A DNA stretch of 26,929 nt from a virus. Position numbers and translations under genes: made by a program. Positions 7,101 through 26,485 of the stretch are shown piece after piece. Numbering within the stretch: position 1 is the stretch's first letter; every line of letters begins with the position of its first letter. The notes beneath the pieces were generated by a model. It was not told the DNA's origin and searched no databases. It saw only the letters and a list, made by a program, of their open reading frames with translations. Location: positions 1 through 26,929 of the IMG/VR virus record IMGVR_UViG_3300032053_000428. One strand, given 5' to 3'.

Positions 7101-7363
7101 TTGTGGTTGCGGCAGTCGTGAATGAGCGCGGCTTCAGGGAAGATGTCGCCGTTGACGTTCTGACCCCAGTACTCCGACGAACCCATGGCGTTGACGAGCA
7201 CTGCGATCTTGTTCTGGTCCGCCGTGTAGCTCTTCAGCCACGCACGGATCTCCGGCATCAGAGCTCCGGCTTCCTTGGCCATAGGAAGAGCGGGATCGAA
7301 GAGCCGGACGAGCGGTTCACCTGCGGGAGAGATCCCACGGAATGTAGCCAGCTTAGTTAGCAT
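4130..7363 (-). CDS. Prohead protease (T4 gp21-like) fused to an inorganic-pyrophosphatase-like domain
   Basis: A 1077-residue polypeptide starting MLTKLATFRGISP; AGGAAG precedes the ATG and the upstream stop is 9 bases away. Residues about 45-250 match T4 gp21-type head maturation serine proteases: NVNGDIF (69-75), a GH pair with H130 as likely catalytic His, and VSMG with S175 as likely nucleophile. After these come a Cys cluster (C185, C188, C199, C201) and the FFDISFVFIGADKTA strand (227-240). Residues about 485-612 match the InPase domain seen in Mu F-like and other large phage polyproteins: VDGDKVDVYVGP (531-542), DEDKVMLGF (566-574). The remainder is helical, with several K-x-A motifs and two hydrophobic, small-residue segments near 992-1010 and 1022-1048. 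The protease assignment is strong. The role of the C-terminal 465 residues is unknown, and self-cleavage is likely but inferred. Confidence 0.8.
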   Translation of the reverse strand: MLTKLATFRGISPAGEPLVRLFDPALPMAKEAGALMPEIRAWLKSYTADQNKIAVLVNAMGSSEYWGQNVNGDIFPEAALIHDCRNHKDQQHPYDSFTGKVIPPYGYWTFLSAYPFVHHRNKDPSRAFGHVALSVWNARMHRVELIVIIDKALALQHGAAEVVDRILAGEFPDVSMGCRVPYDVCTICGNKSKTRNDYCSCVKNIGMNKILEDGRRIGVINCHPRFFDISFVFIGADKTAKVMCKLASGIVVPQSVADADYLYGSEIEEPQDGGLLKAASVENLSEDSSGALDRVLGYAEKSAGIKDLGSISHLFESAVGKHLKTRLGKRSIRIANLLKKAAQNYDPADDADTRLLMGRIDDQESPSVVGDGLLRTNIGTRDEEDSANVDRTNGFSKSEVQSRRGQIHDFYERQSRGVKSVPPGGVEQRAKVMGFYPKQTPANIWTSDHSDSANLSKESSDPLAETFERAKAIKIGPPPSPNRKEYPFVGTIEFKGLTVHVENKPGSVREGKNWRTELKLPYGEIMGSKGVDGDKVDVYVGPWRDAENVYVVHQNFVGGPKDGKYDEDKVMLGFRSADEAKAAYLAHYNSPQFFRSVTAMAFPLFKRVVLGRADRGEKLAAEWFSKVADMHMEDEFQTKEAGFPSWEAASRAASILNAKIPSDWMDVLGWLPRLDEVSGIFFLGHPPLSAQRMKELFGMEKGAASLDELFSGAGTAQRRQRTWRDQVTKRETNVTGSGMESSDKAKTASVDISTVKVARVLHEGWGPEDLLKVSNETKAAAHLKWADIVKRIGPSKAVGRVTPLLSQAETDLPVEVLNKLGEEKDLKKSLATPALMGMALKPHEFQRIILIHIGKGGLADKLDHSGKVFKPSKDSAAPCEGLEPEHLDDGLLEALLPFLEGKAYTGPVVRRRIVRIIVTKPTSHREQTEVDSPLLSKVASAYTWYRREIMKLARAIPATVTSHPELHARTLGLGTEDLFSKTAEGGIGGLDRRSLALLLGSVPLSLLYSAHKKSEMEKGEGTGPLGALIAEHPWLTSMGVVTGLGALLRNPKAQQVLDEMSAAGSRVWNAKQVPANV

Positions 7364-10020: not shown

Positions 10021-10293
10021 GTGGGAAGAATTGAGCATGAGGACTCGACGTTAATCGACGTTGAGGAAGCACGGTGTCTCCTTCGTAAGTCTCGCAGGAC
10101 TGTTTTCTATCTTGTTGGGAAGGGGCGCCTCACGACTCGGCGTGTGCCAGGTTCCAAGAAGACATGGTTTGAACTCTCGGAGGTCACTCGGCTCGCCAAG
10201 GTCGATGAGTCCCTGGGGCGTCCACAGATGTCGGAGAGGCTGGAAGCGCACCTCCGCAAGTGGCATCCGGGGATATTCAACTACGCTAAGTGA
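10021..10293 (+). CDS. Small helix-turn-helix DNA-binding protein (excisionase/MerR-like)
   Basis: A 90-residue protein using a GTG start at 10021; an in-frame stop lies just upstream, and TGAGGT sits 7 bases before the GTG, which fixes the start. Residues about 11-60 have the layout of the excisionase/HTH_17 fold: LIDVEEARCLLRKSRRTVFY, then LVGKGRLTTRRVPGSKKTWF. This is the usual 'helix-turn-helix, then short wing ending in a hydrophobic strand' pattern. A basic C-terminal tail follows. It is the only plus-strand gene between TerL and the 534-residue gene. Its last 8 bases overlap the 3' end of terL, and it diverges from the 534-residue gene. Likely a transcriptional regulator; the target is unknown, and a divergent site in 9951-10020 is one inference. 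Confidence 0.65.
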   Translation: MGRIEHEDSTLIDVEEARCLLRKSRRTVFYLVGKGRLTTRRVPGSKKTWFELSEVTRLAKVDESLGRPQMSERLEAHLRKWHPGIFNYAK

Positions 10294-12139
10294 TGTCGAG
10301 CTCTTCAAGATCATCCTCTATCTCCTCCATGTCCTCCATAGTACCGATTAGCCCATGATGTCTCTGCATTTCCTTCGTGGGTAGAATAACATCAGGCCTC
10401 GGTTTGTTATAGAAGGAAGCCAGAAACCCAAACGTCAGGGAGTGGAACGAGTCATCGGGGTGCCCCGGTGCCGCCTTGTAGATGTTCATTCGCAGCCGGT
10501 CGTTGTACTCCGAGTAGATGTTCAACAGGTCCATTGAGTAGGGGTCTTCAAACTCCTCCCACCTGGGGAACCAGAACACGTTGCCCCGCTTGATGGCGTT
10601 GAACAAATCCGACATGACCTCGGTGCGGTGGCAAAGGTGGCGTGGTACGCCTAGCTGAGAGTCGAACTTGACCTTCTTCTTGACGTTGCCGACCCACTGG
10701 TACTTCTTGATCTTGTCTGCACCGAAGTCGCGGGTGAGCTCATCGTTTGGCCAGTGACCGCCACCGTAGTCTACCCCAACTCTCTGTACGTTGAAGTCAA
10801 CGATGAGCCTGCGAATGATCTCGAGCTGCTTACGAGGCTCGGACTCGATACCCTCAAAGCGGTGCCAATAGAACACTGTGTAGCGGTCTGGGGCGAAAGG
10901 CAGGTACCCGCCCAAGGTCACGACTGTGTACGTTCCTTCGCCAGTACCCCAGTCGATGCCCATGTAGATGGGGTACTGCCTGCTGTACGGGATGACCTCT
11001 TTGTAGTACCGCATCGAGAGCTCGTCCCAACAGTTGCGCTGGACATCTCGACGAGTGAGTGGCCGAGTACCTGAGTCGTAGCTGCGCCCAAGTACCTCGT
11101 TGTAGAACTTGGCGCGGCTGTAGACGCGCTGCTTGTTCTTGATGTCGGACCACTCAATCCAAGGAACCATGAGCTGCGGGATTCGAAACCCTTCAAAGGG
11201 CTTCTCCACACTTGGGTTGGGGTTGGTCGCAACCCAACGGGCATCCGGGTCATCAGGCCGAATGCCGCCGCCGCACTTGCTACAGATGAGCCCCTTCTCC
11301 CCAATGTTCTCTTCATCGAGGATGTTCCAACACCAGCTCAACGGATTCTTAGGGGTTCCGTGACGCTTACAAGGTACAGACCATTCGTTCTGGGTAGAGA
11401 ATCGTGACCAGTAAAACTCGATTGAGTTATCGAGCGACTTCGGAGTGCCTGCATAGATGAAGTACTTGTGGTCGGAGTGGGACGCGCACTCCTCAATGAC
11501 GGGTACGTTGTCCAACAGGATGTCTTGAAACTCGTCGATGATGACCATGTCCGCAGGGATACCGCGGGTACGGTCTGCGTTGAGGAACGCGAAGCGTAGC
11601 GTGACTTGGGAGTGGTTGACGAAACGCTTCTCGAATACGTTCTTGAGCAGCTTGCTGTTCGTGGTCTGCTTCAGGAACGGAGACAGCTCGATAGGCTCAG
11701 AGACGCGGTCTCGGCTGAAGACCTTCGTCTGTTGGTTCGAGGGGCTGACGTAGAGAGACCGGAAGTACGGGTTGATGAGCAGGTAAGCCAGCAAAGAGTT
11801 GCCCAACAGCGTGGACTTCTCTACCTGCCGACCGGCCATAAGAATGCGGCGCTTGGCAGAGCTGTCGTAAATAGCCCGGAGGTACTCTCGGCCTTTGAAA
11901 CTGAAGTTGACCAGCTTGCCCTTAGATGGAATCTTGAACGACCCAGAGACAAACTCCGATGGAGTAGTGCTCATCGGCCCTTCCCTGCTCAGGGATGTGG
12001 CGTCAGTCTCCTCATTGGCACGTTGCCTGCGCAGTACTTCTCGGTCGTCATGAGGGTCAGGGTCAACGGCAGTCTTCAACCACTGTCGGTTGTCCGGGTT
12101 ATCAGATGTGGGGACAATCATTGGCCTGGGTGCCCTCAT
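10286..12139 (-). CDS. terL: Terminase large subunit (DNA-packaging ATPase and nuclease)
   Basis: A 617-residue T4 gp17-type terminase that pumps DNA into the prohead and cuts it. ATPase: Walker A AGRQVEKST (102-110; Glu where many families have Gly), Walker B VIIDEF (199-204), coupling motif YAGTP (229-233). A Cys-rich insert follows (C257, C270, C286, C289), probably a zinc site. RNase H-fold nuclease: D396 in GIDWGTG, D457 in VGVDYGGG, and D562/D563 in HPDDSF. The C-terminus is acidic. The start is uncertain: ATG 12139 has only a weak ribosome site, whereas ATG 11974 (residue 56, MSTTPSEF) has GGGAAGG close by and would give 562 residues with Walker A at the usual distance. The function call is secure. 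Confidence 0.92.
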   Translation of the reverse strand: MRAPRPMIVPTSDNPDNRQWLKTAVDPDPHDDREVLRRQRANEETDATSLSREGPMSTTPSEFVSGSFKIPSKGKLVNFSFKGREYLRAIYDSSAKRRILMAGRQVEKSTLLGNSLLAYLLINPYFRSLYVSPSNQQTKVFSRDRVSEPIELSPFLKQTTNSKLLKNVFEKRFVNHSQVTLRFAFLNADRTRGIPADMVIIDEFQDILLDNVPVIEECASHSDHKYFIYAGTPKSLDNSIEFYWSRFSTQNEWSVPCKRHGTPKNPLSWCWNILDEENIGEKGLICSKCGGGIRPDDPDARWVATNPNPSVEKPFEGFRIPQLMVPWIEWSDIKNKQRVYSRAKFYNEVLGRSYDSGTRPLTRRDVQRNCWDELSMRYYKEVIPYSRQYPIYMGIDWGTGEGTYTVVTLGGYLPFAPDRYTVFYWHRFEGIESEPRKQLEIIRRLIVDFNVQRVGVDYGGGHWPNDELTRDFGADKIKKYQWVGNVKKKVKFDSQLGVPRHLCHRTEVMSDLFNAIKRGNVFWFPRWEEFEDPYSMDLLNIYSEYNDRLRMNIYKAAPGHPDDSFHSLTFGFLASFYNKPRPDVILPTKEMQRHHGLIGTMEDMEEIEDDLEELDIT

Positions 12140-12535: not shown

Positions 12536-13226
12536 GGTTGGCATGGGGTGTTTGGCAGGCCCGCTTTGCGCGGCAGTGGTTGTCTTCCCTGAGAAGGCAC
12601 CAGCCATACCGGGAGTAGACGATTCCAAGAAGCTGAGTTTCTCCACTCGTATGGCCCTCGCCCCGATCATCATGAAGGAAGCACTGTTCTTTGGGATTGG
12701 ATGGTCACAGCCGTCTGTGATCGACCAGGAAGGGCTGTCAGAGGCATGGAGAAGAGCTTGTCTGGATGCACTGGAAGGTGCTCCAGAGGTAGAGCTCCTC
12801 CGCATCGACGGCAACAAAAGACTGAACGGGTTCGCCGGCGAACAGGAGAGTTTCGTGAAAGGGGATGCTCGGTTCTGGCACATAGGTGCCGCCAGCATCA
12901 TCGCCAAGGTCGCACGAGACCTCGAGATGATAGGCATGAGCAAGCACTACCCGCACTACAAATGGGAGCGGAACATGGGCTACGGTTCGAAGGAGCACCT
13001 TGAGGCGCTCTTCCGACTTGGCCCCACCCGCCTTCACCGGGGATGCTTCCTCAAGAAGATCTACCATCGGTTCAGCGACCAAATCGACAAGTCTCAGCTT
13101 CGATGGTCACGCTGGATGGAGGAGTGGTCACCGGCCGTGGAGAACCATGACAACTTCACCGGGTTCATCAAGTCTGACTTGGAGGGTGTCGATATGTCTA
13201 CGGACGTAGAAGGTACTCATTACTGA
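12483..13226 (+). CDS. rnhB: Ribonuclease HII
   Basis: A 247-residue type 2 ribonuclease H, which cuts RNA in RNA-DNA hybrids and at single ribonucleotides in DNA. GGAG lies 5 bases before the ATG. Conserved features: GLDEVG (15-20; D17 and E18), the AGPLCAAVV strand, DDSKKLS (46-52), IDG (D109), AASIIAKVARD (136-146; D146), and GYGSKEHLEAL...GPTRLHRGCF (167-189). The four acidic catalytic residues appear present. The GRG motif after the first Asp-Glu pair is changed to GMG (20-22), which in this family touches the ribonucleotide junction. About 45 extra residues follow the core. The end overlaps the convergent J-domain gene by 29 bases. It may help remove primers or R-loops during phage replication (inferred). 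Confidence 0.88.
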   Translation: MRKESSREARGLSAGLDEVGMGCLAGPLCAAVVVFPEKAPAIPGVDDSKKLSFSTRMALAPIIMKEALFFGIGWSQPSVIDQEGLSEAWRRACLDALEGAPEVELLRIDGNKRLNGFAGEQESFVKGDARFWHIGAASIIAKVARDLEMIGMSKHYPHYKWERNMGYGSKEHLEALFRLGPTRLHRGCFLKKIYHRFSDQIDKSQLRWSRWMEEWSPAVENHDNFTGFIKSDLEGVDMSTDVEGTHY

Positions 13227-14304
13227 AGCGACGCCACTTCTCGTTGACCTTCTCTTCGGTATCACCGATGGCGTCGTTGACAACAGGCATGATCTCGTGT
13301 CGAGCGGCTTGAGCAAGGAAGCGGCTGACAACGTCTGCGATTTTGACAAGCTCGTCCACAAAGGCCAGGTGGGCGAGCTTGTCGAAGTCGCGACTTTGGG
13401 TGAACTTGTCCCACGCAGTGTTCACTGCTTTCATCTTCTCTTCGCTCCCACCTCGGTCGGGGTGGTGCTTCATCGCCTCTCGGCGAAACGCGGCCTTGGC
13501 CTCCGCTTTTGTTTTTACGTCTCCGACCCAGGGCGGTGTCGAAGCCTGGCTTCGAGGAGGTGGGGCAGACCTACCCCTCTCGGCTCCTGAAGCCCAATCG
13601 TCCCAAGAATACTGGCTTCTTCCGGTACCGGCACCACGGCGAGCTCGGCCAAAGATGTCGTCCCACGCATCGTCGATGTCGTCCCACGCATCGTCAGTCG
13701 CACTGCGGGCGTGTTCGTAGGCCCGACTGTTCGCTTCTCTAGCGCTGCGGGCTTCTTCGTACGCCCGACTGCTCTCTCGAGCTTTGCGTGCGCTCTCCCG
13801 AGCTTGTCGAAGTTCCTCTTCGAATTCTCGAGAACGCTTGGCGTACTCCTCCGTGCGCGCCTTGAATCCATCCTGCCACCGACGGTTGCTCTCTTCTCTG
13901 ACCCGCTCCCACCGGCGCTCGCTTTCTTCGCTGGCCCGCTCCCAACGCCTAGAGGCTCCCTGCTCTCCAGCCTCAGCCATAGACCCAGTCACCTTACCGA
14001 ACAGGCTACCAGCCAGCCCACCGCCCAGCGCACCGATGACGGCGTCTCGAACCTTGTGGTCGTTTTCTGCTCCAAGGTAGCCAAGAAGACCCCCACCCGC
14101 TGCACCAACACCCGCGCCGGCAAGCGTGCCGGCAGCCGAAGCGCTCAATGCCGCCTTGTAGAGTCCAGCCTGCTTCACTTTCTCAATGAGCTTCTTCCCC
14201 CTGGGCGTGGCTGCCTCCCACTCGTCTACGGTGCTTTTACTTATCTCTCCGCGGTCTTCCATCGCGTAGAACTTGCGTCGCTGTGCTTGGCTCTTGAATG
14301 GCAC
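13198..14304 (-). CDS. MPFKS-type phage protein with glycine zippers, coiled coil and C-terminal J-domain
   Basis: A 368-residue protein with a GTG start (AGAGGT upstream). Residues 1-43 (MPFKSQAQRRKFYAM, then STVDEWEAATP) form a short basic motif common at the ends of phage structural proteins. About 52-108 is Gly/Ala-rich with two zipper-like segments that could enter a membrane. About 118-200 is a charged coiled coil beginning with an 11-residue repeat (RRWERxxEES). Two copies of DDAWDDI follow (204-217). About 262-305 is a compact J-domain with HPD at 281-283 (MKHHPDRGGSEEKMK), the motif that stimulates DnaK/Hsp70. The last 60 residues include VDELVKIAD. Recruitment of host DnaK to assembly or entry is inferred. 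It is the minus-strand gene just upstream of terL. Confidence 0.75.
   Translation of the reverse strand: MPFKSQAQRRKFYAMEDRGEISKSTVDEWEAATPRGKKLIEKVKQAGLYKAALSASAAGTLAGAGVGAAGGGLLGYLGAENDHKVRDAVIGALGGGLAGSLFGKVTGSMAEAGEQGASRRWERASEESERRWERVREESNRRWQDGFKARTEEYAKRSREFEEELRQARESARKARESSRAYEEARSAREANSRAYEHARSATDDAWDDIDDAWDDIFGRARRGAGTGRSQYSWDDWASGAERGRSAPPPRSQASTPPWVGDVKTKAEAKAAFRREAMKHHPDRGGSEEKMKAVNTAWDKFTQSRDFDKLAHLAFVDELVKIADVVSRFLAQAARHEIMPVVNDAIGDTEEKVNEKWRRFSNEYLLRP
13654..13695. repeat. Perfect 21-base tandem repeat, two copies
   Basis: Two identical adjacent 21-base units inside the J-domain gene encode DDAWDDI twice in the acidic linker after the coiled coil. Perfect identity at DNA level suggests a recent slippage duplication. 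It is not a CRISPR or an attachment site. Confidence 0.85.
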
Positions 14305-15870: not shown

Positions 15871-17865
15871 TCAGTTCGAGAAGCGAAGCTCCTTCTGACG
15901 GAGAGACTGAAGCCCACGAATGACGTCCTCAAGCGCGTACAGCATGCGCTCGACGGCCACCTCTGGCACTTCCTTGAGGCCGATTCGGACTGCGATCAGG
16001 AGCTCGGCCAGCTTGCTCGACGCCGCCTGAAGAGCAGGCAGTAGGTCGACGAAGGTGGACACGTTCTCCGCATTGAGGAAGCCCAACCCGAGGATCTTGT
16101 CCGCGGTGAGAGCATCGTCCAACACGGAGGCTTCCTTGGCCAGGAAGTAGTTGTGGATGGGTGGGTCGAGCTCCGTCAGCTCCTTCTGAAGCTGTGCTCG
16201 AATGCCCGCCATCTTCTCCTTCACGGAGCCGAGAACCTTCAGGCCGGCTACTGACACGCGCTCACCGTTCTGAGCACGGGCAAGGGCCGTCTTGCAGAAG
16301 CGGTGGTCCATTCCGAGGGCCACACCCAGGAACATCGCCTTGTTTCGGTCGATGAACTTGGTGTGATCACTGGCCACCTTGGCGATGGCGGGGCCACGGA
16401 AGGAGAACGTACCGTCCTTGTCCCCAACGATGTCTACGGTGCCGGAGTGGCTCTTGGCAGCCAGCTTCGAGAACAGTTGAGGCTCTGACACGAGCTCAGT
16501 CTTACCGCGCAGTGGCATCCAGTTCAGGAAGTTGGGTAGCACCCACTCCTGCTCGGACACCTTCACCGGCTTGACCAGGCCTTCACCGAACGAGAAGGTC
16601 ACCTGATCTCCGAGGTCGTTCTGCGCCAAGAAGCGCACGCCGGCGGGAGACTGCATCGAACTGGTGATCGTCATCGGGACGAACGCCTTGGCCGTACCGT
16701 GGTCGAGGTAGTAGAGCGCCCCGTAGCCGCGGGGGATGCCCTTCGGGATGTCCGTGGACTTGCCCGCGATCTCGCCAGCAATGTGCTCTTGTAGTGCATA
16801 CTGCGAGCCGTTGTTGAACAACGACAGCGGCAGCACCTGCAGGTCGAGGGTCATCAGCTTGGGGAACACCCAGCCGATCATGGTGTTGCCATTCCCGTCC
16901 TGCACCTTCCAGATGCCGAACGAGTCCGCCACCTTGATCTCCTCCGCCTCAAGCGTCTGCTTGACCGGAGCGTCAGGGCTCATGGTGACCGTGCCGTCGG
17001 CCTCGAGCTGTTGCTGCATGTCTTGGTCACCCATCATGTCCTGAGCAACAGCCATGGGCACGTTCTCTTGCTGCGGGGCGAACATCTCATCCGTGGCCCA
17101 CTTCACCATGGCCTCGTTGGTACCGAGCTTGGTGATCTGCACCACAGTGGGGCGGATACGGCTGGCCACCATCGACGCGACCTTCTCCGGGTCGGACGGC
17201 GTGAGCCGCATAGCTGACGCGAACGCAGCCTTCACCCCGTCATGGGCGTTGTGGATCGTGGAGCGCAGCGACGGGTCAGCCATCGCCGTCTTCATACGGT
17301 CAGCATGGCTGTCTTTGATGCGGTCGTAGAGCTGCGGCAGAAGCGGCAGATTCTCCACCTGAGCCGAGCCCACCTTCGTGCCGCCGGAGCCGAAGCCGGA
17401 GCGGAGCGGGGGCTGAAGGTCGTTGACCAGCGAGGGGTCGTAGGGGCGCAGACGAGCCACGTCGAACGTGTCAGGTCGGATGAGCATCTCCCGCAGCTTG
17501 GCCTCGGTGAGGTGGAAGTACTTCTTCCCGCTGAGGAACACGTCGAGGGGGCTGAGCATCTGCTCCTTGACGACGAGCGGGATGTGGATCTTGTCCAGAC
17601 CCGACCCCTGCATCTCTTCTACCGTCATGGCCGTCTTGGGGCGCACTTCGATGGAGCCGAAGGCATAGCCACGCTCTTCGTCCACCTTGTCCAGGAGGAC
17701 GTGGGAATCGTACCCGCTGAGGTACGGGAGCTGCTTGTACGCTTCCTGCATGATCTCTTGGTGCCAGTTGTCGGTGTTGTCACCAAGTCGGGTCAGCATA
17801 CCAGCCAACTTCTCGGCGCCGTCGAACTGAAGGGGCGCGTCGAGGAAAAGATTCTCAGTAGTCAT
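15871..17865 (-). CDS. Large virion structural protein, unknown function
   Basis: The frame opens at ATG 17871 (666 residues), but AAGGAG directly abuts that ATG; the ATG at 17865 (MTTENLFLDAPLQ) has 6-base spacing and is preferred, giving 664 residues. The first 100 residues are mixed and include EKLAGML. About 225-245 has PEKVASMVASRIRP; the middle has beta-rich stretches (IWKVQDGNGNTMIGWVFPK, then a GYGALYYLDHGTAKAFVPM block). The C-terminal 150 residues are helical, with LAKEASVLDDALTA. There is no signal peptide or enzyme motif. Place between the spike and the packaging genes suggests a tail, baseplate or head-neck protein. Portal is possible but not recognisable. Confidence 0.5.
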   Translation of the reverse strand: MTTENLFLDAPLQFDGAEKLAGMLTRLGDNTDNWHQEIMQEAYKQLPYLSGYDSHVLLDKVDEERGYAFGSIEVRPKTAMTVEEMQGSGLDKIHIPLVVKEQMLSPLDVFLSGKKYFHLTEAKLREMLIRPDTFDVARLRPYDPSLVNDLQPPLRSGFGSGGTKVGSAQVENLPLLPQLYDRIKDSHADRMKTAMADPSLRSTIHNAHDGVKAAFASAMRLTPSDPEKVASMVASRIRPTVVQITKLGTNEAMVKWATDEMFAPQQENVPMAVAQDMMGDQDMQQQLEADGTVTMSPDAPVKQTLEAEEIKVADSFGIWKVQDGNGNTMIGWVFPKLMTLDLQVLPLSLFNNGSQYALQEHIAGEIAGKSTDIPKGIPRGYGALYYLDHGTAKAFVPMTITSSMQSPAGVRFLAQNDLGDQVTFSFGEGLVKPVKVSEQEWVLPNFLNWMPLRGKTELVSEPQLFSKLAAKSHSGTVDIVGDKDGTFSFRGPAIAKVASDHTKFIDRNKAMFLGVALGMDHRFCKTALARAQNGERVSVAGLKVLGSVKEKMAGIRAQLQKELTELDPPIHNYFLAKEASVLDDALTADKILGLGFLNAENVSTFVDLLPALQAASSKLAELLIAVRIGLKEVPEVAVERMLYALEDVIRGLQSLRQKELRFSN

Positions 17866-17875
17866 GGTCATCTCC

Positions 17876-19054
17876 TTACTTCGTAAACGATGCCGTTGAT
17901 AACAGACCTGATAGCTGCCCGGCTAGAGAAGCTACCGCGGGTGCTGCCACAACGGGTGAGCCTGGCGCAGCGCAGGCGAATGCTGAAATCTGCGTGAGTA
18001 GTGTGCCGAGGAAGCTGACGAGCATGTCGCCCTTAACGAGCGGGGAGGCCGCACCATTGCCGAGATGCACCATCGGAGCGTCCATCATAGCCTTCGTACC
18101 GCCCTTCAGCACCGCGTTGACGGCGCCGTCCACAGTAGCATCAGCCGTATCGGACTTCATCATGGCCGCTTTGTTGGACTGCGCTGTGAACAGACCCTTC
18201 ATAGCCTTGATGGTAATGTCCTTCTCTTGCGAGGTAATCTGGATGTTCTCCTTGGCCTCGATGGCGTAGCCCTTCTGCACCAGCCAGGCCACATCGCCTT
18301 CCTTGGTGATGGACAGGTTCACCATCTCTTTGGCCCCGTCATCACCTGAGTCATTGATAATCAGAGATAGTGTAGTCTTGTCACTGTCCCCGTGGGAACC
18401 GATACTGAGCGTCGCGATGTGCGCCTTGTTGTCCGCCTTCTCTTTGGCCTTCAAGGAGAACGTGGTGAGTGCCTTCCCGTCCGTAGCTTTTTCATCTCGG
18501 TCTGTGAGCCAGGTGAGCTCACCACCAAAGGTGAATAGCTCATAGTTCTCGCAGAAATCCTTGATGAAGTTGCGGATTGGGATGTAGAGGCGCTGGGCTG
18601 TGGGGGTTGCCCCAATCTGAACGACACCGCCGCGGCGAAGGATGAGGAAGTTCTCGTCCCGAGTACGCAGCATGATGTCGCCGGGGTTCAATGACTGACG
18701 ACCACCTCGGAAGGTGGTTGTGGACTCATCGGCTGCTGACTGGAACCCCATGACAAACGGGGTCGCGAACCTGCCGCTGCTGGGGCGGCACAGCCAGCAT
18801 AGTGCACCAACCTCAGGCTGTACGTAGATGCCCTCGCCGTTGGCGAAGTGGAAGTACGGGGCCGATACCTGAACGTCGAAGTACCTTTTGTTTCCGTACT
18901 CGCTGATGACGTCTACAGACCAGTCCTCGATGTTCACGTTGATGATTCGACACGTTTCAATAGAAGGTGGATGCCACTCACCCTCCATTACACTGTGGGG
19001 TTGGGGCTCTCGGCCCTTGTTCCCCATATTGTTGAGTGCGTTAGCTGATCCCAT
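17876..19054 (-). CDS. Baseplate spike-like protein (gpV/gp45-type OB fold and repeats)
   Basis: A 392-residue protein; AGGAG overlaps the polymerase stop codon and sits before the ATG, so it is probably co-translated with the polymerase gene. Residues about 33-105 look like an OB fold of the baseplate assembly protein V/gp45 type (IEDWSVDVISEYGNK, then VQPEVGALCWLCRPSSG). About 120-155 has GDIMLRTRDENFLILRRGG, typical of the transition to a beta-helix. About 190-290 is a series of short beta repeats. About 325-345 (MVHLGNGAASPLVKGDML) is the C-terminal pattern seen in several spike proteins. The likely role is the membrane-piercing spike at the baseplate centre. No lysozyme domain or metal-binding tip motif is evident. 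Confidence 0.65.
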   Translation of the reverse strand: MGSANALNNMGNKGREPQPHSVMEGEWHPPSIETCRIINVNIEDWSVDVISEYGNKRYFDVQVSAPYFHFANGEGIYVQPEVGALCWLCRPSSGRFATPFVMGFQSAADESTTTFRGGRQSLNPGDIMLRTRDENFLILRRGGVVQIGATPTAQRLYIPIRNFIKDFCENYELFTFGGELTWLTDRDEKATDGKALTTFSLKAKEKADNKAHIATLSIGSHGDSDKTTLSLIINDSGDDGAKEMVNLSITKEGDVAWLVQKGYAIEAKENIQITSQEKDITIKAMKGLFTAQSNKAAMMKSDTADATVDGAVNAVLKGGTKAMMDAPMVHLGNGAASPLVKGDMLVSFLGTLLTQISAFACAAPGSPVVAAPAVASLAGQLSGLLSTASFTK

Positions 19055-19063
19055 CCTGGTCTC

Positions 19064-22000
19064 CTAGTACAACCACGGGGCCTTGTCTGTACCTGTACCA
19101 AACTCCTTGCCGTAAGCCATAGAAGGAATTGGGTGGGTGCTGTGCAGGGATGACTTCCACCCCTCTGCCGCCGCGTCCAGGATAGTGTCCTTCAAGTTCT
19201 TGCTCTGCAAGCGGGCAAGCCAATCTGTTTGGAGCTCGAGCGGTAGCATGTTGATGCCCTGGAGGATGGGCTTGTACTGCACCGGCTTCTGCCCAGGCTT
19301 GAGGTTGCGGTTGAACGCCACCACTTCAGAGGTAGCTGCGTGGTCTCCTCTCAAGAGTGTCTCGTGGAACCCTGCGTCCGTGACCTCACTCAGGTTGGTC
19401 ATGGCACGAACGAAGGTCTCTACGTTTCGCCGGCGAACCGGGCCTTCATCCTTGTACGAGTTCCAAATCTCGTCCGTGAGGTACTGCTGGACCGCATTCA
19501 TGTTGGTACGCGCCAGCATCTCTCTCGGGTTCTTCGGGCCGTCCGAGATAGAGTCCCCCATCTTGACCTCATCGCCCTTCTTCACCGTCAAGGTACGGCT
19601 CGCAGGTACGTAGTGGTCCTTGCCGCTGACGTGAACACGCCAGCCGCCGGCTGGGTCCTTCTCGATTGCGCTCACCGTTCCATCTGTATCAGCCAGAGTC
19701 GCAGACCCAGGCAGCTTCTTCGGCACGTTGAGTAGTTGCTCCAGTCGGTTGAACAAGCTGGTAGCGTTCGTACCCTTGGCACCTACGATACCGCCCGTGT
19801 GGAAGGCGTTCATCGCAAGCTGTGTAGCAGGCTCTCCCAACGCCTGGGCAGCAATGACCCCTACGTTCGAACCTGGTGAGTGCAACTGACCGTCTTCGTT
19901 CAGGCCGTAGCACTTGGCACACAGGCCCTTGCCGTGAGCACACTTCAACGGGGACCGAACCTCAATCTTGTTCACCTTGTTGTTCTTCAACCTACTCAGC
20001 ATGTCGGAGGTGACCAACGAACCCGCTGGGATCTTGCCCTTGTCGTTGCCCGCCTTGTTGCCAAGGTCAATCTCTCGAACCGTGAATCGGTCAAGAACGT
20101 CTCTGTTATCAATGGGCAGCACCACGCCCTTCGTAGCTCCGCAGTCTTCGTCGATTACCATCTGACTCATCGTGGTGTTGATGAGTTGCTTCGACATCTT
20201 GCCAGGAGCCTGGGTTCCCTGCACACGTCCGATGGTACCCATGCGGGCTCCGTGCATCGACGCGAAGTACGAGCCTATGTCCAAGCCCTCGGAGTATGAC
20301 TTCGGGATGGGGATCGGAACGGGCTCGCCCTTCGAGTCAGCCACCAGCATAGGGGCCACTGTCATTTGCTTGAACTGAGACCAGCTACCGCGCGCACCGG
20401 ACTTCACCCAGTCGTACATGCGGTTCTTCCGGCCGTCGGCACTCTTCTTGGCCTCCGCATGGATCTTCTCGGCTGCGCCAACGTAGAGGTTGACGATCTC
20501 ATCCTTCCTCTTCGTCGGGCTAGAGACTCTTCCTCGAATCTCGTGCTCTTTCTTGGCCGCGTCCTTCAGAACTACGTCGCGATGGACATGGTCCGACAAG
20601 AAGTCATCGAGACCAATCGACATGCCCGTGGCGTACTCGTTACCGATGTCCTTGAACTTGTCGGACACCAAGCCAAAGTCTTTCGGAGTCTTTCGAGCTA
20701 CGTCAGTGAGCAACCCGTAGAGGTTGCCCTTGTTGAGCAAGTAGCTCTGGTCGGTCAGTAGCTTATGGTCACGTACTTCTTCCGGCAACGAGTGGTACAG
20801 CATGAGCCGTCCCACCGTGGTCTTGATTGGCTGGGCCGACTTCTTCAACAGCTCCGCGTAGGCGTCGCCCTCGATGTTGTCGAGCGAGATGAGGTCAGTC
20901 ATCCCGACCTTGCCATCCTTCACTGCTCGCGCGGCGTCGCCCGCCGTAGCGAATCTCATGGACGTCTTCTTGTCCACCTCTGTCAGCTTGTAGATGCCCA
21001 TCATGGACTCTTGTGACGGCTTCGACATGAGGTGACCAGTAGTCGGATTGAACAGGTTGAAGGACGGCATCATCTTGTATGCCTCCTTCACCGCCTTCTG
21101 GCTGACGGGCACGAAGGCAGACATCTTGTCGCCGTCGAAGTCTGCGTTGTATCCCGAGGTAGCAAGCGGGTGAATCTTCACTGCCTTGCCCTCTACCAAA
21201 CGAGGACGGAACGCCTGCACTCCGAACCTGTGGAGAACAGGGTCACGCTTCAGCAAGATGGGGCGCTCTTCGAGTACGTTCTGCAGGGCCTCAAGCGCAG
21301 CAGGATGGTTCTTCTTCACCATCTCCTGGGCATCGAGGGGCTTCTGACCCATCTGCACCAGGCGTCGAACAACGAAGGGCTTGTAGAGCTCAGCCGCGGC
21401 CTTCCTCGGCAAGCCGACTTCATCCAGGCTGAGTGATGGCTCTGGAATGATGACGCCGCGCATCGAAAGGTCTTGTCTACGACCGATTACCTTGTCCTGG
21501 AAGAAGCCTTCTTTCGGCTGTCCTCCTTCACCGCCTGAACCAGAGATGGTCTGCATGATGGCATTGCGGTGCCGGCCCTGATGGATGTGACCTGTCAGCA
21601 TGACTGCCTTGAGCCCGTCGTAGAGCGAGGTCTGAAGCGGCAGCTTCTCCTCCTTCGGCAGCGCGGGGTCGTAGTCCTTGTACTTCAGGTTGATCATCCC
21701 GATATGGTTGTAGAGCCGGTTCACGTCATCGTAGTTGATGTCGCCACTGTCGAGGATCGTGATGGGGCGGAACACCGGGGGCAGCACAGGCATGTGCTTC
21801 ATGGTGTACGCCTCCGAGGGATTCATACCTGCGGTATCCAGCGCACGGAGGTACTTCAGCTTCTTGTTGGCATCGTTGAGCTTAGTAGTGCGTAGGTCGG
21901 GCAGCTTCTGCTCAATGTCTTTCCGCATCTTCTTCTGGTCGATGTCAGCTAGAGCAGACACGATGGCCTGCGGCCCAGTCTTCCCGCCGAGCTCTTCCGT

Positions 22001-25000
22001 ACCAGTAACAACGCGCTTGTAGCTGTTCTGATTCAGCCCCAGTAGCGACGAGATCGGACCTTCGAATACAGGGTTGGGCATCCGCTCGGGCAGCGCGATG
22101 TGCGTCCACTTCTTGCCCTTGAGCCCGCCTGTCATCTTCGGATCGAAGATACCGCCTGCCTCTTCCTTCGCATCCTTTGCTCTCAGCGCACGACCTGCGT
22201 CGGCCAGCGCGCCGTTGCTCATCTCCAACACCTTCTTGTCGGTGAGAGGCTGCAAGATCAAGTCATTGCCTTCCTTGCGTACGTCCAGGCCCATGCCCTT
22301 GAGGTAGCCTTCGAACTTCTTGAACACGAAGGGTGTCTTAGGAGTGGGGATTGAATCTCCCGCTTGGAGTTGTGCCCAGAAGTCGTCGTTCATATCAGAG
22401 TTGCCGACCAGCACTCGGTTGGCGAAGTAGTTGTGGTTCCCTTCAACCTCTAGGTTGTAGAGGTACTTCCCATCATTCCAGGTAAGGTCGGTGTAGCCCG
22501 TCACGCGGAGCACCGGTACATCAACCAAGTACTCTTGAGCCTCGGCCTCATCCATCACGCGATCCAAGGCCTCGCCCACGGGAGCGTCTACCTTGTACGC
22601 CATCGACGGATGGACGTAGGGGGCAATGTAGTTGAAGAACTTGTCGATGTCCTCTTTGGTACCCAGCCGAAGGTCATGTGAGCTGTTGTTCTGACATACC
22701 GTGAAGGTAACCCCAATCTCCACCTTCAAGGCGTCGATCAAACGGTTCCGATCCTCTTCGTTGAAATCTCCAGTGGAGATCCGGACTACTCGCTGTCGAT
22801 TCCCGTGCGTCAGAGACCCGTCGTCTTGGTACCAGACCGCAACAATCATCGGGTTCAACAGCACATGCTTAGGAACTCGTTTGTGCCCCTCCAAATAGAA
22901 GACTCGGTACAGCCCCTCAAACATGGGCTGAGCCAAGGTGCTCCATTCACACATGTCCTGCCCGACGTTGAATCCCTCGTAGCCGGCACAGTAGTCTCGT
23001 ACGTTTCGGGTGGAGAAGTCGGCGAGGATCGCTGCCTTGAACTCCAGGTACTCACGTTGTGCCAAGCAATGGCGTTCTGAGAAAGCGGGGAAGTGGTGGT
23101 CCCCTTTGGTAAGACACCCATCCCCCAGCAAAGACCCGTAGAGAACATTCAGTTGGTGAGCATCCGGCATGAGACCTGTCGACCTGAGCTTCTTACCCTC
23201 CAGGTCCTTGGCCTCTACCTCACCCTCAGTGGTGTAGAACTTGTGCCCTTGCGTACACTTCGTGACGGCCCGCTTGTACTCTCCTCTGGAGTTACGAGCC
23301 ATGTACTCGACCTTGACCAGAGGAGTATCGATCTCACGCTTCCAGTAGTTGAGGATCTTCTTGTACTCGAACTTCAACCCATCCCAAGACAGCACCTTCA
23401 CAGGGAGCTTTTGGTTCACGATGGCTGAGATCATCTTCGGCCCTTGGTCGGTCTCCACCATGGTCCGTCGCAGGAAGCACTTGTACGTCTGCATCTCGCG
23501 GATGTTCTCGCGGGCGTTGTGTGCCAGCAAAGCGTACATGCCCATGATGTCCATGGTTTGTCCGCCCTTGGGACCGCCGCCGGCGGGGAGCATGTTCGAG
23601 TCGTAGGCGTCCCGTGAGCGGACAGACAGACCCTTCTCTGCCGTGTGATGCAGTTTCAAGATGTACTGTTTGCCCACCAGGACGTTGGGGAACTTGCGCT
23701 TGGTGACCGGATCAAAGAGGTCCTCTGTGTCAGACACACCCGCAGCAGCCATCTCCCCCTTCAGGTGCCGTGTATAGTCCGGCACGTTGGGGTCGAAGTT
23801 GTTTACCACGTAGGGCTTGCCCGTCTTCTCTGCGATCTTCGAGGCCGCGGTCTCCAAGATCTGCCCAAGGTTGATACGAGTAGGCACCCCTGTCGGGTTC
23901 AGTATCACCTCGATGGGAGAGCCGTCCTTGTCGTGTGGCATCTCATGGTCGGGCATGATGTTGGTGATGATGCCCTTGTTACCGTGACGTCCTACAATCT
24001 TGTCGCCCACGTCGGCAGGGGCATCAGACTTGACGAAGACGGTAATGTCTTTGCCGTGCCGCACTACCTTGGTGACGACTCCAGGTACTTCCTTGTTCCA
24101 TCGAATCTCACGCGGCTTCCAGGGTCGGATGAGTCCCTTGGAGAACAGGCCCAGCTTCTGCTCGTCCTGAGTAACCGTCTCTTCCTTGAGCACACCAAGA
24201 AGTACGTCGTCCTTGTTGACGGTCTGCCCTTCACGAATGACTGCGGTGTCGTCCAGCTTGTCGGCCTGGTCCTTCGTAACCTTGCCGGCCATGTACGAAA
24301 GGAACTTCTTCTTGTCGAGCTGGAGACTCTTCTCGGACGTCACGCCTTCGCGGAACAGGTGGTCCGACGTCAGCTTCTTTGCAGCAGTCTGGGATATGAC
24401 GATACCGTCTTCGAAGTTGTAGCCCTTCCACGGCATGTACGCGACGCGCAGGTTCGTACCAAGCGCCAGCGTGCCACCCCTCGTGAAGTTAGTATCGGCT
24501 ATTACCTGGCCTGCCTTCACTTCATCCCCGGCCTTAACCAGAGGGTGAGAATTGAGCAGGCTCTTGTCGTCGTTCAGCGGGAAGTCGTCGTAGGTCTGTA
24601 CTTCGTGACGAGTACCCTTCTTGTCTTTGATGATGATGCTGTCCTTGTTCACCTTCTCAATGACGCCCGCCACCGGAGAAGCGTGGCTGACAAACTCCCC
24701 AATACCCTGCTCAAAAGTACGGGAGGGTTGATCACTACGAGTCTGCACGAGCGGCTTTTCTCGGTGCGTCAATGCGATGGCTTGCTCTAGCTGACGGGAG
24801 GCAACCATCGTGCGATTGCCTTGATTGTTCTGCAAGAAGGGGATGAGGTTCGCAGACAAGTCGAACATGCCCTTGCTGGAAGCGAGCACGTAGTCTACTT
24901 CGCTCGGCTTCACCACAGTGACAGTACCATCTGCGTCAGAAACTTTGACCGTCGCCTTCATTGGGATGGGCTTACCGCCCTTCCACTCATACTGATCTGG

Positions 25001-26323
25001 GAAAGCCAGGTTGGACTTGAGCGCCTGGTACGGATTGATCATGTCCTTCTTGCCGGTCTTCACATTGTAGACCGGGATCTTGAGGTCGTGTCCGTCCTTC
25101 ACCACCTGCGAGGCGAGCTGCAACGTAACGCCAATGCGCTCCGACTCTGGCGTTTGAATAGGGTCGAGGAACCCCAAGTGACTGGGGTTGATAGACTGCG
25201 CCTCCAAACCGATCTGGTGCGTGGAGGAGATGCCGCCCTCGCCGGGGGCGTACAGAGTGGTTCTGCGGTTGCCGGAGATGAAGCTGATCGGGTTGGTCTG
25301 CGTAGGGTGCTCGGACAAAACCGAGCTGGTAAAGAACTGACGAAGCGGTTTGCCGAAGATGTCCGGGTTGATGATGTCACGAATCTTGGCGTGCTTGTCC
25401 AGCGTGTTGCCGATCTTCCGCTTGACGCCCTTCTCTACCTGCCACTTCTCGAGTCGCTCATTGATGAGGTCCTCCGCGGAGTGGAGCTCCTTGAACGGCA
25501 GGGAGTCTCGGTCATCTGGCTCTACTTCTTGTCGAGAGACTCTCAAGATCTTGTGAGAGCCGTTGAGCAGCGCCGGTCCCGTGACCTTGTCATAGGGCTT
25601 GCCCAGCGTTAGCTGAGTAGAGTCCGGGCGCAGTACGGTGCCACCAAACTCCTCGTGTACTAGCTTCTTGGCGTCGTCGAGAGTCTCGGGGTTCGTGCCC
25701 TTCACCGAGCGGTAGAACTGACGCAGCGCGGCTTCATCGGTCTTCCAGGTCTTGTTGGCCCCGAAGATCTCTTTGCCCCACGCACGTTCGATGGAATCAT
25801 CATCAACGCCCATCGTCTTGAGGATGGGGTACAGGGGGATGTGCGACTCCCCATAGCGCAACGACATCTTCTGCGTCTTGGGGCTGAAGTCCATGTCGAA
25901 ACCTTGACCCTTGGCCAGGTTCCACTGCGAGGTGAGCTCCCCGTTCTTACGTACGCGGGTGTAGACGCCCGACTTCATACGGAACAGGTTGTTGACCTGC
26001 CACTCGCTGCCGTTGACGATGTAGCTGTAGCGGCGTGTGATCTTCGGTAGCTGCGCTACGTTGACCACCTGGCGGTCGATGACCTTGCCAGTCAGGTTGT
26101 CCTTCAGCTCGAGCTCCGCACGAATAGGGACGGTCCAGCTTCGACCTTTGACCTTGGCATCCTTCTGACTACGGATGTCGTCAACGTGCTTGTTGTCGTC
26201 CACCCACACCCTCTTGGCGTGCAAGGTGTGCTGACGACCCTCAATAGGGAAGTAGTTCTGCACCGTCTGCGCGGTGCGTGTCTTGAGACTTTCAAAAGAT
26301 TCTTCAGGTGAATAATGTGCCAT
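19064..26323 (-). CDS. Fused beta-beta' DNA-dependent RNA polymerase with internal intein
   Basis: One 2419-residue polypeptide; GGAGAGGACCG precedes the ATG. Beta part (1-948, then 1309 to about 1365): FLDPIQTPESERIGV (385-399), GYNFEDGIVIS (634-644), GDKIVGRHGNKGI (773-785), NPTGVPTRINLGQILE (809-824). Beta' part (from about 1390): FFQDKVIGRRQDLSMRGVI (1607-1625), HRFGVQAF (1698-1705), catalytic NADFDGD (1726-1732), SGARGSWSQ (1975-1983), a bridge-helix region (2014-2050), a four-Cys zinc site (C2061, C2128, C2135, C2138), and trigger loop QLAMNAFHTGG (2168-2178). The usual N-terminal beta' zinc finger is absent. After intein removal it is about 2059 residues, shorter than E. coli beta plus beta'. 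It heads the late gene cluster; late or virion-packaged transcription is inferred. Confidence 0.93.
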   Translation of the reverse strand: MAHYSPEESFESLKTRTAQTVQNYFPIEGRQHTLHAKRVWVDDNKHVDDIRSQKDAKVKGRSWTVPIRAELELKDNLTGKVIDRQVVNVAQLPKITRRYSYIVNGSEWQVNNLFRMKSGVYTRVRKNGELTSQWNLAKGQGFDMDFSPKTQKMSLRYGESHIPLYPILKTMGVDDDSIERAWGKEIFGANKTWKTDEAALRQFYRSVKGTNPETLDDAKKLVHEEFGGTVLRPDSTQLTLGKPYDKVTGPALLNGSHKILRVSRQEVEPDDRDSLPFKELHSAEDLINERLEKWQVEKGVKRKIGNTLDKHAKIRDIINPDIFGKPLRQFFTSSVLSEHPTQTNPISFISGNRRTTLYAPGEGGISSTHQIGLEAQSINPSHLGFLDPIQTPESERIGVTLQLASQVVKDGHDLKIPVYNVKTGKKDMINPYQALKSNLAFPDQYEWKGGKPIPMKATVKVSDADGTVTVVKPSEVDYVLASSKGMFDLSANLIPFLQNNQGNRTMVASRQLEQAIALTHREKPLVQTRSDQPSRTFEQGIGEFVSHASPVAGVIEKVNKDSIIIKDKKGTRHEVQTYDDFPLNDDKSLLNSHPLVKAGDEVKAGQVIADTNFTRGGTLALGTNLRVAYMPWKGYNFEDGIVISQTAAKKLTSDHLFREGVTSEKSLQLDKKKFLSYMAGKVTKDQADKLDDTAVIREGQTVNKDDVLLGVLKEETVTQDEQKLGLFSKGLIRPWKPREIRWNKEVPGVVTKVVRHGKDITVFVKSDAPADVGDKIVGRHGNKGIITNIMPDHEMPHDKDGSPIEVILNPTGVPTRINLGQILETAASKIAEKTGKPYVVNNFDPNVPDYTRHLKGEMAAAGVSDTEDLFDPVTKRKFPNVLVGKQYILKLHHTAEKGLSVRSRDAYDSNMLPAGGGPKGGQTMDIMGMYALLAHNARENIREMQTYKCFLRRTMVETDQGPKMISAIVNQKLPVKVLSWDGLKFEYKKILNYWKREIDTPLVKVEYMARNSRGEYKRAVTKCTQGHKFYTTEGEVEAKDLEGKKLRSTGLMPDAHQLNVLYGSLLGDGCLTKGDHHFPAFSERHCLAQREYLEFKAAILADFSTRNVRDYCAGYEGFNVGQDMCEWSTLAQPMFEGLYRVFYLEGHKRVPKHVLLNPMIVAVWYQDDGSLTHGNRQRVVRISTGDFNEEDRNRLIDALKVEIGVTFTVCQNNSSHDLRLGTKEDIDKFFNYIAPYVHPSMAYKVDAPVGEALDRVMDEAEAQEYLVDVPVLRVTGYTDLTWNDGKYLYNLEVEGNHNYFANRVLVGNSDMNDDFWAQLQAGDSIPTPKTPFVFKKFEGYLKGMGLDVRKEGNDLILQPLTDKKVLEMSNGALADAGRALRAKDAKEEAGGIFDPKMTGGLKGKKWTHIALPERMPNPVFEGPISSLLGLNQNSYKRVVTGTEELGGKTGPQAIVSALADIDQKKMRKDIEQKLPDLRTTKLNDANKKLKYLRALDTAGMNPSEAYTMKHMPVLPPVFRPITILDSGDINYDDVNRLYNHIGMINLKYKDYDPALPKEEKLPLQTSLYDGLKAVMLTGHIHQGRHRNAIMQTISGSGGEGGQPKEGFFQDKVIGRRQDLSMRGVIIPEPSLSLDEVGLPRKAAAELYKPFVVRRLVQMGQKPLDAQEMVKKNHPAALEALQNVLEERPILLKRDPVLHRFGVQAFRPRLVEGKAVKIHPLATSGYNADFDGDKMSAFVPVSQKAVKEAYKMMPSFNLFNPTTGHLMSKPSQESMMGIYKLTEVDKKTSMRFATAGDAARAVKDGKVGMTDLISLDNIEGDAYAELLKKSAQPIKTTVGRLMLYHSLPEEVRDHKLLTDQSYLLNKGNLYGLLTDVARKTPKDFGLVSDKFKDIGNEYATGMSIGLDDFLSDHVHRDVVLKDAAKKEHEIRGRVSSPTKRKDEIVNLYVGAAEKIHAEAKKSADGRKNRMYDWVKSGARGSWSQFKQMTVAPMLVADSKGEPVPIPIPKSYSEGLDIGSYFASMHGARMGTIGRVQGTQAPGKMSKQLINTTMSQMVIDEDCGATKGVVLPIDNRDVLDRFTVREIDLGNKAGNDKGKIPAGSLVTSDMLSRLKNNKVNKIEVRSPLKCAHGKGLCAKCYGLNEDGQLHSPGSNVGVIAAQALGEPATQLAMNAFHTGGIVGAKGTNATSLFNRLEQLLNVPKKLPGSATLADTDGTVSAIEKDPAGGWRVHVSGKDHYVPASRTLTVKKGDEVKMGDSISDGPKNPREMLARTNMNAVQQYLTDEIWNSYKDEGPVRRRNVETFVRAMTNLSEVTDAGFHETLLRGDHAATSEVVAFNRNLKPGQKPVQYKPILQGINMLPLELQTDWLARLQSKNLKDTILDAAAEGWKSSLHSTHPIPSMAYGKEFGTGTDKAPWLY
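22400..23479 (-). mobile_element. Intein with LAGLIDADG homing endonuclease inside the beta part of RNA polymerase
   Basis: Residues 949-1308 (360 aa) of the polymerase chain. Block A is CFLRRTMVETDQGPKMI, with Cys at position 1; block B is near GHKFYTTEGEVEAKDL. Endonuclease motifs: VLYGSLLGDGCL (1060-1071) and VWYQDDGSL (1163-1171), both keeping their acidic residues. Block F is YNLEVEGNHNYFANRVLVGN, ending in Asn 1308 before extein Ser 1309. Removing it rejoins QTYK to SDMND, matching the bacterial beta motif TVKSDD. The residue before the terminal Asn is Gly instead of the usual His. The endonuclease looks intact, so the element may still be mobile. Confidence 0.93.
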
Positions 26324-26485
26324 CGGTCCTCTCCAGCACTATCGTGGGAGGCGCAAAGCCTCCTAAGCGGTGGATGGGTACAAGTTCTGCCATCCTACAT
26401 CACTGAAAGTCCAGCCTCCAACATGGAATAAGAGATGTGAAGGGCCCAGTACATCTCTAACCCTACACCAACGGAGGAATAGCAA
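26324..26485. promoter_or_regulatory. Divergent intergenic region with three stem-loops
   Basis: The 162 bases between the polymerase gene (minus) and the first plus-strand small gene hold three inverted repeats. First, GGAGGC/GCCTCC (26347-26352 and 26358-26363, loop GCAAA, extendable by a G-T and a T-A pair). Second, GGATGG/CCATCC (26372-26377 and 26390-26395). Third, AGAGATGT/ACATCTCT (26431-26438 and 26451-26458), whose loop contains the palindrome GGGCCC. None is followed by a T-run, so they are not classic terminators. Start-proximal ribosome sites lie at both ends. No convincing -35/-10 pair is seen. It probably contains the start sites for both directions, perhaps read by a phage polymerase. 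Confidence 0.5.
26431..26458. repeat. Perfect 8-base inverted repeat with 12-base loop
   Basis: AGAGATGT and ACATCTCT flank a 12-base loop containing GGGCCC, ending 27 bases before the start of the acidic microprotein gene. It could form an RNA hairpin in that gene's leader or serve as a dyad binding site. The basis is the sequence only. Confidence 0.6.

Follow-up and report, generated by a model that had tools for sequence, protein, structure and literature searches.

The window analysed here, a 26,929-nt stretch comprising positions 1 to 26,929 of IMG/VR virus record IMGVR_UViG_3300032053_000428, very probably encodes a phage's own two-barrel DNA-directed RNA polymerase (RNAP), the β and β′ subunits of which were joined once in the ancestor of its lineage. 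The same reading includes features predicted from the sequence, namely intein splicing, bacterial-like folding, assembly without a phage α, use of σ, insensitivity to rifampicin, and late synthesis with possible packaging. An initial annotation had proposed a compact phage polymerase with bacterial-like motifs and both subunits in one chain, and this core reading is supported. Nor is the chain an isolated case: a large phage lineage carries the fusion as a rule, with the β/β′ junction inside one ORF at 145 of 148 distinct loci. An unusual phage transcription system, as first proposed, is plausible.

A single reading frame for β and β′

The precursor frame contains no internal stops, and its Pfam matches follow one another along one chain as Rpb2_3 and Rpb2_6 (1.6e-58), an intein splicing domain with LAGLIDADG_2 (1.7e-21), and then, 3′ of the intein, the β′ domains Rpb1_1, Rpb1_2 (1.4e-28), Rpb1_3, Rpb1_4 and Rpb1_5 (3.1e-25). 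In profile comparisons, the chain likewise gives a strong match to bacterial β followed by a strong match to bacterial β′. The 2419-aa frame and this domain order bear out the earlier claim of β motifs followed by β′ motifs in one uninterrupted frame, and GYNFEDG, GDKIVGRHGNKG, NADFDGD, the trigger loop and the zinc cysteines were all found where they had been reported (Table 1).

Table 1. Features of the RNA polymerase gene and its surroundings in the window.
Feature	Position (nt)	Residues	Strand	Basis or remark
Single-chain β-β′ RNA polymerase precursor	19064..26323	2419 aa (2059 aa spliced)	minus	ATG start
N-extein, nearly all of β (fork/Rif region, flap, β double-psi barrel)	23480..26323	1-948	minus	
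GYNFEDG, β motif	24404..24424	634-640	minus	motif location in translation
GDKIVGRHGNKG, β double-psi barrel lysines	23972..24007	773-784	minus	motif location
Intein, splicing domain + LAGLIDADG endonuclease (C...GN|S)	22400..23479	949-1308 (360 aa)	minus	
C-extein: end of β, junction, all of β′	19067..22399	1309-2419	minus	
β/β′ junction, ~10 residues KEGNDLILQP	22247..22276		minus	hand-derived from alignment
NADFDGD, catalytic metal-binding motif of β′	21128..21148	1726-1732	minus	motif location, conservation
Second zinc site of β′ (DEDC ... CAHGKGLCAKC)	19910..20152		minus	motif location, bacterial alignment
Trigger loop GEPATQLAMNAFHTGG	19790..19837	2163-2178	minus	motif location, conservation
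Conserved next gene, family f2, weakly spike/gpV-like	17876..19054		minus	profile match, clustering
Conserved family f1, 'structural protein' in Arash	15871..17871		minus	flank clustering
Terminase large subunit	10286..12139		minus	phrog_675; best Pfam GpA_ATPase
Upstream block TTGGAG-18-TAGGAT, possible σ70-like promoter (weak)	26392..26421		minus	kept in L002, L003, L004

Both double-psi barrel modules are present, as seen from the DxDGD metal motif and the conserved β lysines, and the chain also keeps the bridge helix, a His-bearing trigger loop and the second zinc site. Among 69 single chains of the lineage, the three catalytic Asp residues, the β Lys/Arg residues and the trigger-loop His are each at least 98% conserved. 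Comparison with the homologue on contig L002 gave a dS of 1.17 and a dN of 0.08 (dN/dS 0.068), and the ratio over the junction region was 0.038; the fused state is under strong purifying selection.

The junction and the predicted structure

A profile of 2042 positions was built from the 69 single chains. On this scale, bacterial β ends at about position 987 and bacterial β′ starts at about 998–1001, so that the two subunits are joined almost directly. In the bacterial alignment, the fusion consists of some 10 joining residues plus the loss of the first residues of β′. The structure prediction that had been suggested as a check was run, and the AlphaFold models (pLDDT 87) match their bacterial counterparts, with a TM-score of 0.87 between the β′ model and bacterial β′ and a β-half model that matches bacterial β. 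The junction stretch is modelled at high confidence as part of a β-hairpin rather than as a floppy linker.

One bacterial domain is missing. The profile alignment to bacterial β′ has a gap at chain positions 79-186, the region of the N-terminal zinc-binding domain, and 106 of the 107 phage sequences compared have no cysteine there. Both the helix of the flap tip and the clamp helices of β′ can be aligned with bacterial sequences; in bacteria, these dock σ region 4 and σ region 2, respectively. At the rifampicin contacts, the position of S531 is Thr in 103 of the 107 phage sequences, while that of H526 is Gly, Asn, Ser or another residue in nearly all of them. The phage enzyme is thus predicted to be insensitive to rifampicin, which we leave as a prediction because the fork/Rif region is still present.

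Inteins and other insertions

The intein interrupts β at a conserved TVKSDD-type motif (QTYK|SDMNDDF), and the exact splice point is given by the chain encoded on L002 (a 59.6 kb contig; 88% identity), which has no intein and measures 2058 aa. The intein is also absent from L003. The insertion is in frame and has Cys1, a terminal Asn, Ser at +1, splicing blocks and an endonuclease domain. Since its C-terminus reads GN instead of the usual HN and the splicing domain scores 24.7 against a Pfam cut-off of 35.8, the case for splicing is drawn from the precise in-frame insertion. Self-excision would yield a 2059-aa enzyme, in exact agreement with the length previously proposed (360 aa of the 2419 being intein).

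The RNAP gene is in fact a recurrent intein target, with about seven insertion sites at conserved motifs that include NADFDGD and the trigger loop. The chain at L227:4917-14492 carries three large insertions, probably inteins, and one to three such insertions occur in the chains of L012, L032, L079, L087, L202, L216, L219, L223-L225, L229 and L274. Other kinds of insertion were seen as well. Vibrio phage D181 has two group I introns (L007:4494-4774 and 697-904), one of them within the RNAP gene. In L003, the RNAP gene is directly followed by an HNH-endonuclease-like ORF (16180-16830) whose end duplicates the C-terminal tail of the RNAP (GMAYGKEFGKGTEKEPWLY), an arrangement resembling a homing element that brings along a substitute end for the gene.

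Distribution of the fusion in phages

The initial annotation called for a search of phage and metagenomic proteins. Such a search was run on IMG/VR, the query being an alignment that combined sequences of the window type with those of cultured phages, and 325 candidates were found to encode relatives. The best 79 of these 325 formed the first locus set; further scans brought the number to 223 loci, or 148 distinct loci after collapsing, window included. The β/β′ junction lies within one ORF at 145 of the 148, and none is broken at the bacterial β|β′ boundary, with three loci undecidable. Of the 148, 81 are complete single chains, which measure about 2000-2200 aa or, where inteins are present, more. 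At 22 loci, β is fused to the N-terminal half of β′ and the remaining β′ lies elsewhere, while 29 have one additional cut about 100 model positions into β′ and 13 are truncated or broken at other places. A viral scan seeded with GN1 found six loci, all with the junction inside one ORF, and a β′-seeded scan added two more fused loci (L333 and L334).

Among cultured phages with annotated genomes, Salmonella phage Arash belongs to this lineage, as do Vibrio phages D69, D181 and D148. Their chains are colinear with those of the window lineage across the β/β′ junction at about 30-36% identity, a portal-like gene likewise lies upstream of the RNAP, and Arash has the same terminase family. What differs is that β′ has been cut after the NADFDGD motif, which reads AADYDGD in these phages, leaving a 1525-1527-aa chain of β and the N-terminal part of β′ (interrupted in D181) and a separate 606-609-aa C-terminal part of β′. 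In Arash, the RNAP genes are gp206/gp216.

Two side observations emerged from these surveys. The RNAP gene at L062:6950-13021 contains 11 in-frame TGA codons, of which four fall at conserved-Trp columns and the others at variable columns, and that at L069:6929-13000 contains a single one, at a conserved Trp; this pattern suggests that TGA is read as tryptophan in both phages. Separately, the phage-filed records CAKLQH020000005, AGRM01000005 and the OR84xxxx series hold rpoB/rpoC at bacterial levels of similarity. They look like host chromosome and do not belong in a count of RNAPs from phages.

Phylogeny and alternative origins

In keeping with the earlier suggestion, phylogenies were built with bacterial β/β′, using 13 sampled bacteria and no archaeal outgroup, and the lineage fell outside all of the bacteria sampled. 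The first tree (53 taxa, 1790 columns) separated all phages from bacteria with a UFBoot value of 99. The second (43 taxa, 989 columns), to which a split-gene phage lineage was added, again set the phages apart (support 92), recovered the fused lineage as monophyletic (100), and grouped the branch with a detached C-terminal part of β′, including Arash and the L214 group, as a single nested clade (100). The monophyly of the fused lineage and the nesting of this clade make one fusion, followed by cuts inside β′, the simplest history; re-cutting in one subclade, including Arash and D69/D181, would then be later than the fusion. The choice of taxa changes the deep order among phage clades, where several nodes have support values of 20-67, so that a single detachment is moderately supported at best.

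These results bear directly on other explanations for the chain. A recent capture of host rpoB-rpoC followed by loss of the stop codon would account for the gene order, β then β′ as in bacteria, and for the bacterial-like motifs. The phage clade is nevertheless separate from all 13 bacteria sampled, and nesting in a host rpoBC clade, which had been raised as the outcome that would undo the reading, is answered by that placement. Moreover, the best of the matches listed for a scan of 84,980 species' genomes reached only about 32%, and the portal and terminase neighbours are common to the whole lineage. Considering the trees and the genome scan, host capture was rejected as highly improbable.

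The joining of two genes by an assembly or sequencing artefact has to be considered as well, given that the window is itself one metagenomic contig of 26.9 kb. The junction, however, is found in 81 full single chains on independent contigs and, as β joined to the N-terminal half of β′, in cultured phages, and the dN/dS of 0.038 at this point also speaks against a spurious join. The independent contigs with the same fusion also answer the initial concern over a frameshift or stop, and an artefact was dismissed as having next to no likelihood. The gene's location among structural genes might point to an inactive relic or a structural protein, but all catalytic residues are kept and dN/dS is 0.07, which leaves this idea with very little probability.

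Gene setting, σ factors and a possible place in the virion

Clustering of flanking ORFs from profile-aligned loci revealed a conserved order of portal-like family f0 upstream (78 contigs), RNAP, f2 (67), f1 (69) and terminase family f4 (33), with neighbour functions resting on weak profile matches. Every one of the 24 records examined, that of Arash among them, has a terminase of family phrog_675. A search of named phages for relatives of the neighbouring 666-aa protein found none; later clustering assigned this protein to the structural-protein family of Arash. Because relatives have the portal-like gene upstream on the same strand, the RNAP gene sits inside the structural cluster, and the notion that it heads a late cluster was not borne out. 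The block upstream of the gene is conserved, yet a promoter scan found σ70-like sites to be no more numerous than in shuffled sequences and did not pick it out, and it is therefore only a lead. Elsewhere in the window, positions 4130-7363 encode a protein of 1077 aa that carries an InPase domain (PF18823), with matches to phage minor head and polyvalent proteins. The product of positions 13198-14304 is 368 aa long, is DnaJ-like over part of its length and matches tape-measure proteins weakly.

Among 30 long contigs of relatives, σ70 region 2 and region 4 (Sigma70_r2, r4) were each detected in 13; region 2 was not found in the other 17, which are fragmentary contigs and include the window's nearest relative. 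An α subunit was found in 0 of 30 relatives by a search that was positive in 13 of 14 control genomes. On the favoured reading of a fused phage polymerase, the intein would excise and the 2059-aa chain would adopt a bacterial-like core fold in which a single molecule holds both barrels. Since β and β′ are covalently linked, and no α gene was seen in relatives, assembly would be largely independent of the α scaffold, although host α might still bind. Promoters would be found through a σ factor, of the phage or the host, as suggested by the retained flap-tip and clamp-helix docking sites and by the σ70 domains that many relatives encode. The enzyme would then transcribe phage genes without a phage α and be insensitive to rifampicin. 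We infer splicing, activity, σ use, α independence and rifampicin insensitivity, as well as packaging, the last from gene position only.

The gene has portal, spike and terminase genes as neighbours, which suggests late synthesis of the enzyme and, quite possibly, its packaging for early transcription when the next host is infected. That it is in fact packaged and injected in this way, as in phiKZ or P23-45, is given slightly less than an even chance. Its fixed place between portal-like and spike-like genes on the same strand in about 67-78 contigs would fit, as would the fact that no T7-type polymerase was found in the 30 records, in a search that was also silent in the 14 cellular control genomes and so had no control positive for the family. 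Gene position, on the other hand, may reflect late expression only, and σ-docking sites and phage σ factors would fit a non-virion enzyme too.

Implications

Cells build core RNA polymerase from β, β′ and an α dimer. A natural one-chain core with σ-docking sites could thus reveal the role of the α scaffold, and the fused gene could supply a single-gene, σ-dependent and possibly rifampicin-insensitive polymerase. A broader proposal is that of a widespread phage lineage with a one-polypeptide core that needs no α and perhaps no ω, uses phage σ, travels in the virion and has been re-cut inside β′ in one branch. We consider this fuller picture rather unlikely as a whole; if true, it would be the simplest known σ-compatible core of bacterial type and a worked example of split phage RNAPs arising after fusion. 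Fusion followed by new cuts inside β′ is a suggested route to multi-piece phage polymerases, whereas the opposite order, with separate pieces first, was argued earlier (PMC7824862). The lineage is common, and with Arash (on Salmonella) and the Vibrio phages D69 and D181 it includes named phages in which the content of virions, sensitivity to rifampicin and the use of promoters are now open to testing.

Comparison with known systems

Natural rpoB-rpoC fusions occur in Helicobacter, also with β then β′, but these are cellular enzymes with an ordinary β′ and represent a separate event. Compared with the cellular type, the window chain has no separate β and β′ polypeptides and no β′ N-terminal zinc-binding domain. 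No published statement of a β-β′ fusion in this lineage was found in the literature covered, most subscription journals and preprints lying outside that coverage.

Among phages, the closest described group is mReC, which was reported from 97 contigs as having β and β′ subunits, with fusion mentioned only for crAss-like phages (PMC7481178). The likeness lies in phage β/β′ that can be aligned with those of cells, a deep phage clade and structural-gene neighbours. If the window lineage belonged to mReC (Weinheimer & Aylward 2020), the RNAPs of that group would be fused even though described as two subunits, a possibility that we regard as doubtful. The common database speaks for membership, as do the β and β′ HMM matches with NADxDGD and the position apart from cellular clades, so that the fused protein would pass the mReC HMM tests, here applied with Pfam in place of COG models and with our own reference set. 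The markers point the other way. The mReC capsid protein Gp23 (PF07068) was found in 0 of 30 relatives, and the window, as a fragment, may itself lack the region; this search gave no positive among 14 cellular genomes and was validated by matches in two split-gene phages. The terminase best matched PF05876 and not the mReC marker PF03237 in 7 of 7 cases (the window and six relatives), with PF03237 not fully discriminating, as some terminases of the fused lineage reach it weakly. A distinct phage lineage recovered by the β′-seeded scan (L328-L332, L335-L338) has unfused genes in the order β′ then β, zinc-domain-like cysteines in most members, PF03237 terminases in many, and the Gp23 capsid in its two longest contigs (236 and 194 kb). 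This split-gene lineage fits the mReC markers better than the fused lineage does and is probably of mReC type. Filing the window under mReC was accordingly dropped on the capsid and terminase tests and on the separate lineage that carries those markers.

Another relative is possibly RNAP1 of the hydrothermal vMAG_21, reported as a gene encoding β and β prime at the base of the mReC/phage clade (PMC10159854); fusion is not discussed there. The RNAPs of nucleus-forming jumbo phages (phiKZ/AR9-type) are also two-barrel phage enzymes with the catalytic motifs but have only weak local similarity to the window chain. Their β and β′ are each split into several genes, whereas the window lineage has the junction within one ORF and σ70 domains; no σ factor is present in the jumbo phage group (PMC7824862). 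Fused-DPBB derivatives among cell-type RNAPs in general have also been described (PMC10770324). Finally, gp66 of the crAss-like phage phi14:2, gp64/gp96 of P23-45 and YonO resemble the window chain in carrying two barrels in one chain, but they are highly divergent, with sequence homology to β/β′ that is not easily recognised (PMC7481178, PMC10770324). The window chain, unlike these enzymes, retains a full bacterial-type core with strong matches to both β and β′.
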